Shown: one piece after another, positions 42,320-49,947 of the stretch
Layout: each line of letters starts with the position of its first letter
Position numbering within the stretch: the stretch's first letter is position 1
NCBI RefSeq assembly: GCF_028369105.1
Contig: NZ_JAQNDO010000001.1
Span: 9,890,501-9,954,500, forward strand
DNA from: Polyangium mundeleinium
GTDB lineage: Bacteria > Myxococcota_A > Polyangia > Polyangiales > Polyangiaceae
Length of the DNA stretch: 64,000 nucleotides
Direction: 5' to 3'
Notes under the pieces: generated by a model
Database searches by the model: none
Told to the model about the DNA's origin: nothing
The model's input: the letters and a program-made list of their open reading frames with translations, nothing else
Position numbers and translations under genes: made by a program

Positions 42320-43366
42320 TCAGAATGCTCCTCGCACGCGCAAGCCGGCTGGGAGAAGCTCCACGGTCGTGAAAGCCCCGACGAACGCCCCCCTCGGCGC
42401 CTTCCCTTTCGGCGAAGGCGCCGGCGCCGTCGCGAAGAGCACCACCCCGCCGAGCAGCACGACGCCTCCGATGGCGAGCGCCGCGGTCGAGCCATTGCCG
42501 AGCCCCACCGCCTCGCTCCGCAGCACGAGCCCCGCGCGCTTGCAATAATCGTCCGCGTCGCAGAGGCCCCCCGCATTGCTCTCGTCGTTCTTCTGGATCG
42601 CGAGCCCGCCCAGCACCGCGCCCACGACGAGGCCCGCGGCCCCTGCGCCCATCGCCGCGATGCCGAGGGGACGTTGCCACGGCCTCGCAGCCGTGAAGTT
42701 CTGGATGACCACCGTCGACGCTGCGCGCCTCCGCTCCTCGGCGGCGCGCGCGGTCGGCGCGATGGGGGGCGCCTCGACGCGCACCACGACGGTATCCCCG
42801 TCCTTCGCCAGCTCGACCGTCCGCGTCCACGCCTGGTACCCGGGCGCCGTGACCACGATTTCGTGGTTCCCGACGTCCACGGGCAGCGCCATTCCCCATT
42901 GCCCTTCCCCCACGACCACGCCGCCACGCGTGACGGAGAGCTGCGGAATCGCGCCGACCTCCTTCGGCACCTCGATCGTCAGCCTCGCGAGCCGCCCCTT
43001 CAGCGCTTCCGCCTTCGCCGCCGCGCGCGTGGCGCGGTCCTTTTGCCCCGCGCGCTCCGCGAGGGATTTCGCCACCGCATATTGGGACCACGCGCTCGCC
43101 AGCTTGCCGGTCTTCTCGTAACACTCGGCCAGCGTGAGCTTGGCGCCGATCCCTTCAGGCACGAGCCTCACGGCCTCCGCGAGTTTCGGGCATGCCGTCG
43201 CGTGATCGCCGGCGTCCATCGCGACGACCGCCTCGTCGTAGAGCGCCTGCGCAGCGGTGATTTTCTCCGCGTCGCTCGATTGGGCGTACGCGGGCGGCGC
43301 GACGAGGAGCGCCCCACAGAGGACCGCGAGGACACATGCGTCGAGGGAGCGGTTCGTCCGGTGCAT
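42320..43366 (-). CDS. TPR/PEGA-domain envelope protein
   Basis: 348 residues, start at 43364-43366. Signal peptide to about 28 (APPAYAQ). Residues about 35-120 look like one or two TPR-type helix pairs (ALYDEAVVAMDAGDHATACP, AECYEKTGKLASAWSQYAVA). About 130-215 has a PEGA-like beta-domain (VPVDVGNHEIVVTAPGYQAW). Two membrane helices (about 235-260 and 300-322) follow, joined by a short Cys-containing loop. Proteins with this plan are numerous in Polyangiaceae, often near kinases; function unknown. It shares its strand with the DUF4215/RCC1 gene upstream. Confidence 0.75.
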   Translation of the reverse strand: MHRTNRSLDACVLAVLCGALLVAPPAYAQSSDAEKITAAQALYDEAVVAMDAGDHATACPKLAEAVRLVPEGIGAKLTLAECYEKTGKLASAWSQYAVAKSLAERAGQKDRATRAAAKAEALKGRLARLTIEVPKEVGAIPQLSVTRGGVVVGEGQWGMALPVDVGNHEIVVTAPGYQAWTRTVELAKDGDTVVVRVEAPPIAPTARAAEERRRAASTVVIQNFTAARPWQRPLGIAAMGAGAAGLVVGAVLGGLAIQKNDESNAGGLCDADDYCKRAGLVLRSEAVGLGNGSTAALAIGGVVLLGGVVLFATAPAPSPKGKAPRGAFVGAFTTVELLPAGLRVRGAF

Positions 43367-43381
43367 CCTTCGTCCCCTCGA

Positions 43382-45754
43382 TTACCGGAGCTTCACGGCC
43401 AGGAGGTTGTCGCCCATTTCGTTCGGCTCGTCCCCGCGATCCAGGATATCCCCGAGGCCGAGCTGGCCGCGGTTGTTCTGCCCCCAGCATTTGACGCTCG
43501 CGTCGTCGAGGAGCACGCAGGCGAACCGGCCGCCCATCGCGATCTTCCTCGCCTTCCTGCCGGTGCCGAGATCCACCGTGGGGAGCGCGTCTCCCATCTG
43601 TCCCGGCCCGTTTCCGCGGTCTACCTTGTCGCCGAGGCCGAGCTGTCCGCGGGCGTTCTCCCCCCAGCATTTGACCGTGCCGTCGTTCAGGATCGCGCAC
43701 GAGCTCGCGGCGCCCGTCACGATGTGCGTGGCCGTCTTGCCAGTGCCCAGATCGACGAACGGCAGGTTGTCCCCCAGCTCCCCCGGGCCGTCGCCCCGGG
43801 ACGCGCCGTCGCCGAGCCCGAGCTGGCCCACGTCGCCGAGCCCCCAGCATTTCACCTTTCCGCCGGAGAGGAGCGCGCAGGAATGGCCAAACGTCGTCGC
43901 GAGCGAGAGGACCTGGCCCACGTTGCCGAGGGCCGCCACGGGCAACGCGTCCCCCATTTCACCCATCCCGTCTCCCCGCTCCGTCGTATCCCCCTGGCCG
44001 AGCTGTCCCCAGTCGTTGTAGCCCCAGCATTTCACGGTGTCGTCGTCCAGGACCGCACATTGAAAGCTGTGTCCACTCGCGGGCTGTCTGGCCGACCTGC
44101 CCGTCCCGAGCGAGATCGGGGGGAGGTCGTCGCCCATCTGACCGGGCATGTTGCCCCGGTCCATCGTATCCCCCTGGCCGAGCTGGCCGTTCGCGTTGTA
44201 TCCCCAGCATTTGAGGGAATCGTCGTCGAGGATCGCGCAGGAATGGGCGTAACCGCAGCTGATGGCCTTCGCCGTCCGGCCCGCGCCGAGGTCGAGGATC
44301 GGCAATGCGTCCCCCATCTCGCCCGGCCCGTCGCCTCGGATCCCCGCGTCGCCGAGGCCCACCTGTCCGACCGTGGCCCCCCCCCAGCATTTGACGGTTT
44401 CATCGTCGAGCAGCCCGCACGTGTGCGCCGTGCCGAGGGCCATCGAGGTGAGGCGGCGGCCCTGGCCGACCGTGAGGAACGGGAGAGCGTCTCCCATCTC
44501 GTTCGGCGCGTCGCCCCGACTCAGGGTGTTCCCCAGGCCGAGCTGACCCACGTCGTTCGCGCCCCAGCATTTCGCACGTCCATCCGCGAAGAGCACGCAC
44601 ATGGTGACGCCGCCCGCGAAGAGCTCCACCGGCGCCACGAGGCAATCGGGCAGGCAGGTCTCCGTCGCGGTGGGGCTGCCGTCGTCGCACTCCTCGACGC
44701 CCTTCCGGACGAACCCATCCCCGCAAATGGCATTCTTGCACGCCGACGTGCACGTATCCGTGTCGATCGTGTTTCCGTCGTCGCACTCCTCGACGCCGAC
44801 CCGGAGCAGCCCGTCGCCGCAGGTGGCCTGCACGCATGCGGCGGTGCAAGCATCACTGTCGAGCCCATTGCCGTCGTCGCAAGCCTCCCCGGGCTGCACG
44901 ACGCCGTCCCCGCAGCTCGGCACCTTGCACATCGTCGTGCATTCGTCGGTGTCGTCCGTGTTTCCGTCGTCGCAGACCTCCGCATTCGACAGGACGCCGT
45001 CCCCGCAGACGCATCCGGGACCCTCCTCGTCGACCCAGCCGTCGCAATCGTCGTCCACGCTGCTCGAGCTGCAGGTCTCGGGCGAAGGCAAGGTTTGCCC
45101 CACGCACTCTCCGTACGCCGTCCCGTCGGGGTTGCAGATCTGCTTTCCGCTCTGGCAGGGCGTGTTCCCCAGCGCCGCCTCCGGTCCGCCGAAGCAATCG
45201 CCGATCGCGCCGGGGACACACACGCACCCGACCCCCGATTCGTTCACGAGCCCGTCACAATCCTCGTCGAAGATCGACAGACACGTCTCCTCCCGGGGCA
45301 AGACCTCGCCGAGGCAAGGCCCGGTCGGCACCGCGTCCTCGTTACACGCCTGCTTGCCCTCGACGCAGATCCCGATACCACGCGCCCCGGCGGGCCCGCC
45401 ATAACAAGGCGCGAACGAGAGCCGCTCGTGCGTGGGCGTGCTCCCCACGCAATGATCGAACGTGCAGGGATTGCCGTCGTCCGCGAAGTCCGCCTCCACC
45501 GGCAGGAGCCGGATCCGGCCCCCGCCGTCGCATTGCGCCTCCAGGCAATCGCCCACGGTCTGCGTCGCCAGCGGGGTGCCCGCGGGCTCGTCGTCGTAGA
45601 CGCAGCGCTCGTCGATGCACGCCGCGGCCCGGCATTCGGGCGCCGGCACCACGCAATCGGCCACGGTGACGCATGCATCCGGGTACGGTTTTCCCTCCCG
45701 GATTCCAGCGACCTGATTGCAGGCGGCCCACGCGCCGAGGAGCCACGAAAACAT
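43382..45754 (-). CDS. Lipoprotein with DUF4215 repeats and seven RCC1-like repeats
   Basis: 790 residues from the ATG at 45752-45754, chosen for its lipobox (LLGAWAAC); another start upstream is possible. The first ~250 residues are Cys-rich with MopE-like motifs (DEDCDGLVNE, DDDCDGWVDEEGPGC). Next come four DUF4215 repeats (CDDGNTDDTDECTTMC and relatives), Cys/Asp-rich modules that probably bind calcium. The C-terminal ~390 residues are seven near-identical RCC1-like blades ending in VKCWGxNxxGQLGLGD, likely a seven-bladed propeller. It is probably a large surface-exposed adhesin or binding protein. The neighbour on the other strand is a Ser/Thr kinase. Confidence 0.85.
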   Translation of the reverse strand: MFSWLLGAWAACNQVAGIREGKPYPDACVTVADCVVPAPECRAAACIDERCVYDDEPAGTPLATQTVGDCLEAQCDGGGRIRLLPVEADFADDGNPCTFDHCVGSTPTHERLSFAPCYGGPAGARGIGICVEGKQACNEDAVPTGPCLGEVLPREETCLSIFDEDCDGLVNESGVGCVCVPGAIGDCFGGPEAALGNTPCQSGKQICNPDGTAYGECVGQTLPSPETCSSSSVDDDCDGWVDEEGPGCVCGDGVLSNAEVCDDGNTDDTDECTTMCKVPSCGDGVVQPGEACDDGNGLDSDACTAACVQATCGDGLLRVGVEECDDGNTIDTDTCTSACKNAICGDGFVRKGVEECDDGSPTATETCLPDCLVAPVELFAGGVTMCVLFADGRAKCWGANDVGQLGLGNTLSRGDAPNEMGDALPFLTVGQGRRLTSMALGTAHTCGLLDDETVKCWGGATVGQVGLGDAGIRGDGPGEMGDALPILDLGAGRTAKAISCGYAHSCAILDDDSLKCWGYNANGQLGQGDTMDRGNMPGQMGDDLPPISLGTGRSARQPASGHSFQCAVLDDDTVKCWGYNDWGQLGQGDTTERGDGMGEMGDALPVAALGNVGQVLSLATTFGHSCALLSGGKVKCWGLGDVGQLGLGDGASRGDGPGELGDNLPFVDLGTGKTATHIVTGAASSCAILNDGTVKCWGENARGQLGLGDKVDRGNGPGQMGDALPTVDLGTGRKARKIAMGGRFACVLLDDASVKCWGQNNRGQLGLGDILDRGDEPNEMGDNLLAVKLR

Positions 45755-45870
45755 GACGGCGCGGAAGCCCCACCGGCGCCTGCGAGTCTCGGAGCGACCT
45801 ATCTCCACCCGGCGGAGTGACACACGAGAACACACTTCCTGTCAAGGGTTCGCCCGGTTATGGTGGGCCC

Positions 45871-47436
45871 ATGGCGGCCGTCGTCACGCCAGGCGAAACG
45901 TTGCTGGGCAAGTACCGCGTCGAGCGTGTCCTCGGCCAGGGAGGCATGGGCATCGTCGTGGCGGCGCGGCACGAGGGCCTCGGCGAGCTCTTCGCCATCA
46001 AGCTGATGCTCGCGCCCAACGGCGCGAGCCGAGGGCCGGCCGTCGAGCGATTCCTGCGCGAGGCGCGGAATGCGGCGCGCCTGAAAAGCGAGCACGTCGC
46101 GAAGGTCCACGACGTCGGCCGGCTCGACGACGGCCGGCCGTACATGGTCATGGAGTACCTCGAAGGCCGCGACCTCGCCGACGTCATCGAGCGGCGCGGC
46201 CCGCTGCCCGTCACGGAGGCGGCCGGGCTCGTGCTCCAGGCCTGCGACGCCCTCGTGGAGGCGCACGCGCTCGGCATCGTGCACCGGGACCTCAAACCCT
46301 CGAACATGTTCCTGATCCGCAGGCCGAACGGAAAACCCTGCCTCAAGCTCCTCGATTTCGGGATTGCGAAGCGCGTGGACGCGGAGTCGAAGGCGCTCAC
46401 CGCGACCGGCGCGCTGCTCGGCTCGCCGCTCTACATGTCCCCGGAGCAGCTCGAGAACGCGAGCACTGTTGGACCTCGAAGCGATGTATGGGCGATGGGG
46501 GTCGTCTTCTACCAGCTCACGACCGGGCGTGTCCCGTTCGAGGGCGAGTGGATCGGGCAGGTCGTCCACGCGATCATGGCGATCGAGCCCAAGCTGCCGA
46601 GCAAGATCCGGCCGGAGCTGCCCGTCGAGGTCGACGCGATCGTCGATCAGTGCCTGCGCAAGAACCCGGAAGAGCGTTATGCAACCATGGGGGAGTTCGC
46701 CTCGGCCGTGCGCGAGCTGCTCCGCGTGAACAGCATGCTCTCGCCGCTCTCGAACCTGCTCGGCGAGGAAGCCTATCGCGCCCTCTCGGCGGAGCTCGCC
46801 TCGGCGCCCACGGCCCCGGCGTTCGAGCAAGGGCCCACGCAGGACGGGCCACGAGAGGCGCCCCCGAGGGCCCAGGCCGTGACGCTCTCCGAGCCGCCCG
46901 AGAAGCTCGCGGAGCCGCGGTCGACGAACGAGACGTCGAGCACCCCGGCGCCCTCCGGGCCGAGCCCCGCGCCCATGGAGGCCGCGCCCGCGCGCGTGCC
47001 CGAGGGCGCCGCGTCCACGCAGTCGCCCGTGAGCCGGACGATGTCGGAGGCCACGCCTCCGCCCGAGCGGCGCGCGTCTCCCCCGTGGATCGCCATTGCC
47101 GTGGGGTGCTCACTGCTCCTCGGCGTCTGCATCTTCGTCTTTCGCGAAAAACCGGCCCCCACGGCCCCGAGCGTTCCCGGCTCCGAGCCCGAGGTCGCCA
47201 CGACCGTCGCGACGCCTCCTGCATCGAGCCCGCCCGCGCCGCCGCCCGAGCCCTCACCGGCGCCGCCCGTCTCGGCGGCCCCCTCGGCCGTCTCCGCGCA
47301 GCCCTCCGCGACGGCGACCGCACCCCGGGCGACAGCGATGACGTCCGCGAAGACCCCGCCAGCCAAGGCAGCGCCGTCGGCCCCCGCCGCGTCCACCACG
47401 AAATCGACCGCCCCGCCGCGCGATGGCCTTTTCTGA
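45871..47436 (+). CDS. Eukaryotic-like Ser/Thr protein kinase with one membrane helix
   Basis: 521 residues, ATG at 45871. The kinase domain (about 14-280) has the glycine loop GQGGMGIV, catalytic lysine in FAIKLML, HRDLKPSN and DFGIAK, so it should be active. Residues about 300-405 are a Pro/Ala/Ser-rich linker. A membrane helix (WIAIAVGCSLLLGVCIFVF) lies near 410-428, and a second Pro/Ala-rich part to the end is outside the cell. This is the PknB-like layout, although no PASTA or other named sensor domain was seen. Divergent from the DUF4215/RCC1 gene. Confidence 0.9.
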   Translation: MAAVVTPGETLLGKYRVERVLGQGGMGIVVAARHEGLGELFAIKLMLAPNGASRGPAVERFLREARNAARLKSEHVAKVHDVGRLDDGRPYMVMEYLEGRDLADVIERRGPLPVTEAAGLVLQACDALVEAHALGIVHRDLKPSNMFLIRRPNGKPCLKLLDFGIAKRVDAESKALTATGALLGSPLYMSPEQLENASTVGPRSDVWAMGVVFYQLTTGRVPFEGEWIGQVVHAIMAIEPKLPSKIRPELPVEVDAIVDQCLRKNPEERYATMGEFASAVRELLRVNSMLSPLSNLLGEEAYRALSAELASAPTAPAFEQGPTQDGPREAPPRAQAVTLSEPPEKLAEPRSTNETSSTPAPSGPSPAPMEAAPARVPEGAASTQSPVSRTMSEATPPPERRASPPWIAIAVGCSLLLGVCIFVFREKPAPTAPSVPGSEPEVATTVATPPASSPPAPPPEPSPAPPVSAAPSAVSAQPSATATAPRATAMTSAKTPPAKAAPSAPAASTTKSTAPPRDGLF

Positions 47437-47451: not shown

Positions 47452-48882
47452 TCACGTCTCGGAGGCGCTCTTCTTTCCGCGCGGGATCCCGTAGGCATCC
47501 ATCCACCGCGCTAGCTGTCGCTCGTGGACCCCGAGCAGGCGCGCCGCCTCGCCCTGCACGCGCTTCGCCTGGACCAGCGCCGCCTCGATGGCCTCCCGCG
47601 GCGGGCGTGTCGACCGCTCCCGCGGCAGCTCGGCGGACGGCGAAGGCTCCGAGGGCGACGCGTCGGCAGCCGATCCCTCGGCCCGCGCCCCGACCTTGCC
47701 CGCCGCGCGTGCGGCCACCACGCTCAGGTGTGGAAGGTCGATGGGCCCGTCGCCCTTGAGCACGGCCGCGCTGGAGAGGGAGCGCTCGAGCTCGCGGATG
47801 TTGCCCGGCAGATCCCCGAAAAAAAGCGCGCGCGCGGCCCGCTTCGTGATCGCGACGCTCGGCAGGCCCGTCTTGCCGAGGATGTCCGCGCAGAGGACCC
47901 CGAGGTCCTCGCGCCTCTTTCGCAGCGGCGGCAAGAGAGCGACGTACCCCGCCAGCCGCGCCCGCAGATCGGCGCGGAAGCGGCTGTCCTCGGCGAAGAG
48001 CGACTCGTTTGTCGCGGCAATCCAGCGCACGTCCACCTTCTGCGGGCGCTCTCCGCCCACTGGCGTCACCTCGCGCTCCTGGATCACGCGGAGCAGGCTG
48101 GCCTGCGCGCTCTCCAGGAGATTGCCTATCTCGTCCAGAAAAACCGTGCCCCCCTCCGCGCTGCGGATGCGCCCTTTCCGCTCCTCGACCGCGCCGCTGA
48201 ACGCCCCGCGCCGGTGGCCGAAGAGCTCTCCCTCGACGAGGTGGTCCGGGATCGCGCCGCAGTCGACCGCCACGAAGGGCCCGGCGCGGCCGCTCTTTTC
48301 GTGCACGAACCGCGCGGCGATCTCCTTGCCCGCGCCCGTCTCCGCCAGCAAGAGCACGGGCTGATCGGTGCGCGCGATGCGCTCGAGGTCGGTCGAGATG
48401 CCCGCGAGCTCGGGGCACAACGTGCGCGTCGGGCCATGCGACAGGCCCTTGCGGAGCGAGGCCATCCGGCCGGCCATGCGGGGCTCGACGAGGCGATACA
48501 CGAAGAGCGAGTGGCCGATTTCCAGGAGGTCGCCGTCGACGAGCACGCGCGGCCCCTCGATACGTTTGCCGTTCACGAACGTCCCGAGCTTGCTGCCGAG
48601 GTCCTCGATCACGTCGGCGCCGCGGCGGCGCACGAGGCGCGCGTGGGTGCGCGACACGAAAGGATCGGGCAGGAGCAGGGTGGACCCCTCGAGCGCCACG
48701 GGCCCCACCTCCGGGGCGCGCCCCACCTCGTAGGTCGTGCCCTCGCGGGTGATCGGGGGCAAGATCATCGAATCGTCCGCGGGGAGATCGTCGTAACGCA
48801 GGACGTAGACGAGCATGCCCACGGTCTTCTGCTGAACCGAATGCTCCTGTTCCGTCTGGGTGGTGAGCAGAGGTCGTGCCAT
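47452..48882 (-). CDS. FHA-domain sigma-54-dependent transcriptional activator
   Basis: 476 residues, ATG at 48880-48882. An FHA domain (about 40-125) has GRAPEVG, SRTHARL and DLGSKLGTFVNG, and binds phosphothreonine, so a kinase such as the one at 45871 may control it. The AAA+ domain (about 150-370) has the Walker A AETGAGKE, Walker B GGTVFLDEIG and an L1 loop GAFSGA (GAFTGA in most activators). The C-terminal Fis-type helix-turn-helix has LLGVHERQLARWM. Together with sigma-54 it should switch on a promoter with upstream sites, most likely that of the SGNH gene. Confidence 0.9.
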   Translation of the reverse strand: MARPLLTTQTEQEHSVQQKTVGMLVYVLRYDDLPADDSMILPPITREGTTYEVGRAPEVGPVALEGSTLLLPDPFVSRTHARLVRRRGADVIEDLGSKLGTFVNGKRIEGPRVLVDGDLLEIGHSLFVYRLVEPRMAGRMASLRKGLSHGPTRTLCPELAGISTDLERIARTDQPVLLLAETGAGKEIAARFVHEKSGRAGPFVAVDCGAIPDHLVEGELFGHRRGAFSGAVEERKGRIRSAEGGTVFLDEIGNLLESAQASLLRVIQEREVTPVGGERPQKVDVRWIAATNESLFAEDSRFRADLRARLAGYVALLPPLRKRREDLGVLCADILGKTGLPSVAITKRAARALFFGDLPGNIRELERSLSSAAVLKGDGPIDLPHLSVVAARAAGKVGARAEGSAADASPSEPSPSAELPRERSTRPPREAIEAALVQAKRVQGEAARLLGVHERQLARWMDAYGIPRGKKSASET

Positions 48883-48940
48883 GCGCGGACCGGATCCTAG
48901 GCGACGCGCCCGTCGCGTCGCAAGCGCGGCCTCGCCCCAC

Positions 48941-48989
48941 GTCCGGACACCCGCGGCGATGTCCGGACCTCCCGCCCCGATGTCCGGAC
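48941..48989. promoter_or_regulatory. Three GTCCGGAC palindromes: likely activator binding sites (UAS)
   Basis: The 8-bp palindrome GTCCGGAC occurs at 48941-48948, 48961-48968 and 48982-48989, spaced 20 and 21 bp, about two helical turns. They lie 59-107 nt upstream of the activator start and 63-125 nt before the sigma-54 -12/-24 element on the other side. This is the normal distance for enhancer-binding proteins. The Fis-type DNA-binding domain of the adjacent activator is the obvious reader (inferred). Confidence 0.65.
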
Positions 48990-49051
48990 GCGCGGAGCCT
49001 CAGCGCTCGCGGGCGTCGCCGATTTCCTCGTGAAATCGAGGGATCCGGTGG

Positions 49052-49066
49052 TGGCACGAGCGTTGC
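49052..49066 (+). promoter_or_regulatory. Sigma-54 (RpoN) promoter for the SGNH-hydrolase gene
   Basis: TGGCACG-N4-TTGC, with GG at -24 and GC at -12, matches the RpoN consensus with correct spacing. Transcription should start near 49077, giving a leader of about 66 nt before the ATG at 49144. Confidence 0.8.
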
Positions 49067-49143
49067 GATAGCGTCCTCCCGAAGCGCGCGACGGAAAGTC
49101 CGGCGCGCCGAACCCTGAACTTCACACGCCAATGGAGGCTCCC

Positions 49144-49947
49144 ATGACGCTCTCGAATTCCCTCTTCGCCCTGACCCTCGCGTTCCTCTCCTGTGCCTCG
49201 ATGGGCTGCACGGTCGATTCGATGGACGCTGCAATGGCCGATGACGCCGCATTCGCTGAGGGCGAGGACGCCGCCGAGGCGGACGGCGAGGACGAGGAGG
49301 TCGCCGAGGCCGAATCCGAGCTCGGCGTGGAGTGCAAGATCCAGCCCTTCGGCGACTCGCTCACCGCGGGCATCGGCGGGCTCGACGGCTATCGCGGCCA
49401 CCTGCTCGTCACGCCGCCGGCCGTGGGCGCGCCAATCCGAATGTCGGGCCTCTCGGGCGATTGGTCGTCACCGAACCTCTGGGCCGCCGGCCAGCACCTG
49501 CACTCGGGGTATCCCGGGTTCCGGATCGACCAGCTCACGCCCTGGATCCAGACGAATTACGTCGGCGCGAACGTCCTGCTCGTGCACGCCGGGACGAACG
49601 ACATCCTCCAGGGGCAAGGCCACCTGAATGCGGCGTACGATCTCGACATCATGGTCCGCTGGCTCATCGCCTTCAACCCGACGGCGCGGATCCTCGTCGC
49701 GAAGATCATCCCGCTCATGGGGGCGTACGCCGTCCTCAATGGCGAGGTGACCGCGTACAACGCCTACGTCGACGGGATCGTGGCCACGCTGAAGGCGCAA
49801 GGGTACGGGAAGGTGGACGTGGTCGACATGAACACGGGCTTCCCGACGTGGACGCTCGCCGCGGATGGCATCCACCCGGACGCCACCGGTTATGCCTGGA
49901 TGGCCAGCAGGTGGCGCAACAAGCTCAATGCGCTCGGGTGCTTCTGA
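49144..49947 (+). CDS. SGNH/GDSL-family hydrolase lipoprotein
   Basis: 267 residues, ATG at 49144; an in-frame ATG at 49132 exists, but GGAGG lies just before 49144. Lipobox (SMGC, Cys 22) is followed by an acidic spacer (Asp/Glu/Ala). The SGNH fold has FGDSLTAG (block I nucleophile Ser), HAGTNDI with the block III Asn, and AADGIHPDATGYAWMA holding the catalytic Asp and His. It should cut ester bonds, perhaps acetyl groups on polysaccharides. It is driven by the adjacent sigma-54 promoter and therefore tied to the FHA activator. Confidence 0.88.
   Translation: MTLSNSLFALTLAFLSCASMGCTVDSMDAAMADDAAFAEGEDAAEADGEDEEVAEAESELGVECKIQPFGDSLTAGIGGLDGYRGHLLVTPPAVGAPIRMSGLSGDWSSPNLWAAGQHLHSGYPGFRIDQLTPWIQTNYVGANVLLVHAGTNDILQGQGHLNAAYDLDIMVRWLIAFNPTARILVAKIIPLMGAYAVLNGEVTAYNAYVDGIVATLKAQGYGKVDVVDMNTGFPTWTLAADGIHPDATGYAWMASRWRNKLNALGCF

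Follow-up and report, generated by a model that had tools for sequence, protein, structure and literature searches.

The 64-kb stretch of Polyangium DNA analysed here, hereafter the window, belongs to a genome of 13.25 Mb and carries, between 47452 and 49947, a minus-strand activator gene and a plus-strand SGNH gene that diverge from each other, with short palindromes and a -24/-12 box between them. The activator gene (47452-48882, minus strand) encodes a 476-aa FHA-domain sigma-54 activator (bEBP) with an FHA domain, an AAA+ domain carrying a GAFSGA loop and a Fis-type HTH, while the SGNH/GDSL hydrolase gene (49144-49947, plus strand) encodes a 267-aa protein that is predicted to be exported. 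Convergent with the activator, and not in an operon with it, lies a Hanks-type Ser/Thr kinase gene (45871-47436, plus strand; Pfam Pkinase 1.6e-47), whose product has its kinase domain followed by a hydrophobic segment; beyond it come a divergent gene for an RCC1-repeat protein (43382-45835, minus strand; Pfam RCC1 repeats) and one for a TPR/PEGA-like protein (42320-43366, minus strand; weak TPR and PEGA matches). The locus was compared across six Polyangium genomes, the window's own (G000) included and P. fumosum designated G001.

Domain searches assigned the activator an FHA match (Pfam, 2.9e-15), a Sigma54_activat match (PF00158, 7e-51) over residues 161-311, and an HTH_8 match (E 2.9e-4) whose 20.9 bits fall just below the curated Pfam cut-off of 22; its recognition helix reads VHERQLARWMDAYG. 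The P-loop, AETGAGKE in the alignment of both the window activator and its paralog, departs from the usual bEBP form GESGTGKE. The FHA domain contains VGRA, SRTH and VNG, and since the G-R, SxxH and NG residues of a canonical phosphothreonine reader are thus kept, the activator may read phosphothreonine. The AAA+ loop is GAFSGA in 11 of the 12 activator-family loci and GAFTGA in the remaining one (L017), and GAFSGA is listed in PMC4641369 among the loop variants expected to be compatible with activation. In the window's genome a single protein matched the sigma-54 DNA-binding family, whereas at least 87 matched this activator when 150 of 196 candidates were scored; in an order-wide search the activator was matched in 10 of 144 genomes at E <= 1e-100, and the loci of the four among these 10 that lie outside the genus held no exact GTCCGGAC, the palindrome described below.

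The hydrolase gene does follow the promoter, as the first-pass annotation had it, but its start is likelier the ATG at 49144 than 49132, for a GGAGG ribosome-binding sequence lies at 49134-49138 on the plus strand, where GGAGGCTCCCATG is kept in all five genomes with the locus. Two GDSL matches were returned (Lipase_GDSL_2 in Pfam, 3.9e-15), and S72, N152, D241 and H244, which we assign to the SGNH catalytic blocks, are invariant in 20 aligned sequences. By sequence and by fold alike, the nearest solved structures are the family-3 carbohydrate esterases 5b5s, 5b5l and 2vpt, at 22-28% identity; the structural model has a pLDDT of 78.6, with TM scores of 0.73-0.78 on the top three fold targets. 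The domain thus folds most like family-3 carbohydrate esterases, a similarity of fold from which carbohydrate deacetylation would be predicted, and the Polyangium protein differs from these best matches in having an acidic linker, and possibly a lipid anchor, ahead of the domain. The protein had been called a lipoprotein: a lipobox-like ASMGC, in which the Cys is residue 22 (codon 49207-49209), speaks for this, yet no Lys or Arg precedes the Cys in any of the five orthologs, and lipid anchoring is plausible but weak, whereas the protein is probably exported and, if so, may reside at the cell surface. Outside the genus, 16 places with SGNH homologs were listed, 15 of them with loci, and none of these 15, read with flanks of up to 1.5 kb, had a GAFTGA-like or ELFGH activator motif; hence this control of an SGNH gene seems to be a feature of Polyangium.

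Between the two genes, the three GTCCGGAC sites that had been reported 20-21 bp apart were confirmed at 48941-48948, 48961-48968 and 48982-48989 (palindromes 1 to 3, without strand; spaced by 20 bp, then 21 bp), and so was the perfect TGGCACG-N4-TTGC promoter, TGGCACGAGCGTTGC, at 49052-49066 on the plus strand. Ten bases separate its GG (-24, 49053-49054) from its GC (-12, 49065-49066), and transcription from it is expected to start near 49077. Throughout the window GTCCGGAC occurs four times, three of them at this locus, and the box TGGCAYN6TGC twice, both at this locus. By comparison, 60 windows simulated with a Markov-1 model, which preserves dinucleotide composition, had a mean of 3.0 GTCCGGAC copies, with no GTCCGGAC pair 8-40 bases apart and no exact TGGCACG-N4-TTGC box on either strand. 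GTCCGGAC is also the sole palindromic 8-mer in the window with three non-overlapping copies in 60 bp; when every palindromic 8-mer was counted, the simulations produced five such triples in total, so it is rare, yet possible, for one palindrome or another to form a triple. Over the whole genome, exact GTCCGGAC pairs with 6-36 bases between them were found in only two other regions, with periods of 42 and 43 bp, and the reversed-pattern control gave none; at zero mismatches, pairs at 20-21 bp are unique to the SGNH locus. Looser patterns stayed near background, with 141 matches versus 112 in the control when up to three mismatches were allowed at 21 bp, and three versus two for one GTCCGGAC placed 42-72 bp before a loose box. 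On the other side of the palindromes, TTGCGA-N18-TAGGAT (48894-48923, minus strand) was picked out by eye on the alignment and is tentatively assigned to the activator gene as a sigma-70-like promoter; its TAGGAT and TTGC are invariant in the five genomes with the locus. A second promoter candidate, TGGCACGACCTCTGC at 48867-48881 on the minus strand, matches 10 of 11 consensus positions and overlaps the activator start codon; it is probably a chance match, because it fades to TGGCTCGGCC(C/T)CTGC in the relatives and coincides with the MARPL codons.

In five of the six genomes the activator and the SGNH gene occur together with the convergent kinase, the box and a pair of palindromes spaced by 21 bp. 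The same four relatives carry both the activator ortholog (86-87%) and the SGNH ortholog (84-87%), and P. fumosum has neither: its best activator match is the paralog, at 65%, and no SGNH match was found. In each of the four relatives, the two palindromes stand 62-63 bases before the box and correspond to palindromes 1 and 3, which are thus kept in all five genomes; the triple of the first-pass annotation holds for the window's genome, but in the alignment palindrome 2 lies in a 20-bp segment that this genome alone possesses. GG-N10-GC of the box is kept in 5/5, with TGGCAC in two genomes and TGGCAT in three. All 16 columns of the shared palindromes are invariant, versus 180 of 240 gap-free intergenic columns (P = 0.008), and for palindromes plus box 30 of 31 columns are invariant (P = 0.0009). 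With 75% of the gap-free intergenic columns invariant across the five genomes, these are close relatives, and conservation of the palindromes is on its own modest evidence.

The neighbourhood is conserved as well. The kinase is the convergent neighbour of the activator in all five genomes with the locus (65-75% identity over 392-497 residues in the four relatives), and the RCC1 and TPR genes beyond it are likewise kept in 5/5; in the window's genome these two genes (42320-45835) stand in swapped order relative to the four relatives (L105-L108). Against a link between this kinase and the activator, kinases of the type are numerous: P. fumosum has at least 31 kinases of this type at E <= 1e-60, and its best kinase-domain match reaches 56%, both among 150 of 353 candidates scored. 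Of the tie to Ser/Thr kinase signalling that had been proposed, the adjacency of kinase and activator stands, and signalling from the kinase to the FHA domain is what we infer from the conserved neighbourhood.

A paralogous activator, 65-68% identical to the window activator, is present in all six genomes, with the near-identical recognition helix VH[ED]RQL[AT]RWMDA[YL]G in five and VTDRQLARWMDAFG in the sixth. A regular expression recovered a helix in only 3 of 28 other activators taken as controls, so any specificity of this helix relative to them is tentative. At each of the six paralog loci, an element located about 300-360 bp past the activator stop codon is followed by the box TGGCATTCC.C.TGC and then by an uncharacterised gene, t2, whose protein has no NCBIfam or Pfam match. 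The element contains GTCCGGAC in five genomes and the one-base variant GTCTGGAC in L014; in five genomes it is built of a single palindrome and, after it, GGAC half-sites at intervals of 10-11 bp, while in L015 it has two palindromes 21 bp apart, which is the format of the window. When all six genomes were searched for GTCCGGACAANTYCGGACA, the half-site array, with at most one mismatch, 26 matches turned up, distributed over 17 distinct places; the reversed control had none. A TGGCAYN6TGC box lies within 450 bp at 16 of these 17 places, versus 55 of 5000 random control positions (control sequence of 145,120 bp with three such boxes, two of them at the SGNH locus). Four of the 17 places are the paralog loci from which the pattern came, and the box is found at 12 of the other 13. 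Of the genes behind those 12 boxes, one is an additional t2 copy in P. fumosum and 11 belong to t3, a 165-aa family; the array-box pairs fall into few gene families and should not be counted as 16 independent events. The main t3 locus has its box, aligned in all six genomes and conserved in each, about 320 bp from the array; the t3 protein is predicted to be all-helical (pTM 0.49), and the t2 and t3 families have no detectable relation (hhalign probability 0.5%).

The recurrence of these arrays before sigma-54 boxes makes it very probable that the GTCCGGAC sites are the enhancer of the activators. It also leaves the claim that the SGNH esterase is the sole target unsupported, because in the window's genome two further sigma-54 promoters have this element ahead of them; the esterase would rather be one of at least three target classes of a small GTCCGGAC regulon. 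A genus-wide search for a loose box preceded, at 42-72 bp, by one GTCCGGAC had seemed to point to a single target: it gave 10 forward and 12 reverse matches (3 and 5 in the control), of which the SGNH locus recurred in its five genomes, a likely coding match was common to G000, G001 and G005, and the rest were single-genome; the array scan, which found the same core at other sigma-54 promoters, led us to drop this idea.

Several further places bear related sequences. In the window's genome, a GTCCGGAC half-site array (L176/L190, G000:C1:8076030) follows an OmpA-like gene with neither a sigma-54 box nor a t3 gene in reach, and is the one exception among the 17 places; its target may have been lost, because L178 of G003, by eye the same place, has both. 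In G003 only, a single GTCCGGAC stands about 50 bp before the box TTGGCACGTCGCGTGCA, reading into a lipoprotein-like gene (L079, G003:C95:300806). L017 (G005:C34) encodes a third activator with 56% identity and the recognition helix VHERQLARWMDVLG; directly past its stop codon come about ten copies of TGGACGTCGAC with an 11-bp period (by eye) and then a small Cys-rich lipoprotein-like gene, and no clear sigma-54 box was seen by eye. One intergenic region of L036 (about 1640-1980) holds a long array of the 21-bp unit cgtctccaagtctcgtgcgcg, again by eye.

These comparisons bear on what the palindromes are for. Were they of chance or repeat-derived origin, leaving the promoter as the sole functional part, the extra copy in the window's genome, which resembles a 20-bp segment inserted or duplicated recently, would be readily accounted for, and single copies are indeed common, since one GTCCGGAC is present at five of 28 control activator loci, which add up to 114 kb and include some mutual orthologs. 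None of these 28 has two, though, and the uniqueness of the 20-21 bp pairs in the genome, their retention in the relatives and their recurrence at sigma-54 promoters make such an origin scarcely credible. The sites could also serve chiefly for autoregulation, as an operator at the leftward promoter of the activator, SGNH being driven by sigma-54 via another activator; the distance of 17 bases from palindrome 1 to the conserved TTGC-N18-TAGGAT reading into the activator (by eye) would suit this role. It is nevertheless a very unlikely one, given that the element of the paralog lies downstream of its activator gene, between gene and sigma-54 promoter, and that in the window's genome the t3 array precedes a sigma-54 box, and the surrounding 20 kb that were read contain no related activator. 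Somewhat less improbable, but still unlikely, is that SGNH is driven by the paralogous activator, or by both activators, so that the neighbouring one would not be a dedicated regulator. The near-identical recognition helices and the common element would permit this; the window activator and SGNH, however, co-occur in five genomes, and P. fumosum keeps the paralog while lacking both.

We consider it highly probable that the SGNH locus is an enhancer-dependent sigma-54 switch, composed of the FHA activator, the palindromes, the box and the SGNH gene and embedded in a GTCCGGAC regulon. The enhancer-dependent circuit in the order given by the first-pass annotation is supported by the activator domains, the one sigma-54 gene, the conservation and the recurrence of the element at other promoters. 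In this switch, activator dimers would bind the GTCCGGAC palindromes set two helical turns apart and assemble an AAA+ ring, which would remodel the sigma-54 polymerase waiting at 49052-49066, whereupon the gene for the exported carbohydrate-esterase-3-like SGNH protein would be transcribed. The input would probably be phosphothreonine signalling read by the FHA domain, because this domain keeps the canonical residues and a Hanks kinase is its conserved convergent neighbour. The paralogous FHA activator and the other sigma-54 promoters would use the same operator code, with cross-talk likely. A broader reading, to which we give somewhat less than even weight, is that duplicated FHA activators share one code by which kinase signals jointly control a surface carbohydrate esterase together with two protein families of unknown function, the two activators cross-talking; just as tentatively, that code may take the form of GTCCGGAC palindromes at a spacing of two helical turns or of CCGGACAAWT units spaced by one turn.

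In 2005 Jelsbak, Givskov and Kaiser reportedly described enhancer-binding proteins with FHA domains from Myxococcus xanthus, and the Polyangium protein likewise joins an FHA domain to a sigma-54 activator in a myxobacterium; the Polyangium case differs in that operator, promoter and neighbouring target are readable and the target is carbohydrate-esterase-like. LipR of P. alcaligenes is said to be an NtrC-family lipase regulator. In Pseudomonas (PMC12134079), an NtrC-family activator and sigma-54 drive secreted ester hydrolases (lipases), which is likewise a sigma-54 activator at an upstream site with an exported ester hydrolase as target; the Pseudomonas systems have response-regulator input and a lipase, whereas Polyangium has an FHA domain with a Ser/Thr kinase and a family-3 carbohydrate-esterase-like SGNH protein. 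The first-pass annotation knew of no described case with a surface esterase as sole target; sigma-54 control of secreted ester hydrolases has precedents, even though the FHA/carbohydrate-esterase-like combination differs from them. An exported SGNH target also fits the view, presented in PMC3162934, that sigma-54 controls the bacterial exterior. The literature searched (mostly open papers) contained, among the matches listed, no description of the GTCCGGAC operator or of the SGNH locus.

FHA activators in myxobacteria and sigma-54 control of exported ester hydrolases are already known, and what deserves pursuit is the operator code that two FHA activators have in common. To our knowledge, operators of this activator class are seldom readable from sequence alone, and at the SGNH locus the code is unusually readable. 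With an operator, a promoter and several targets legible here, the route from kinase to FHA domain to sigma-54 becomes testable, and target genes without known function are named.
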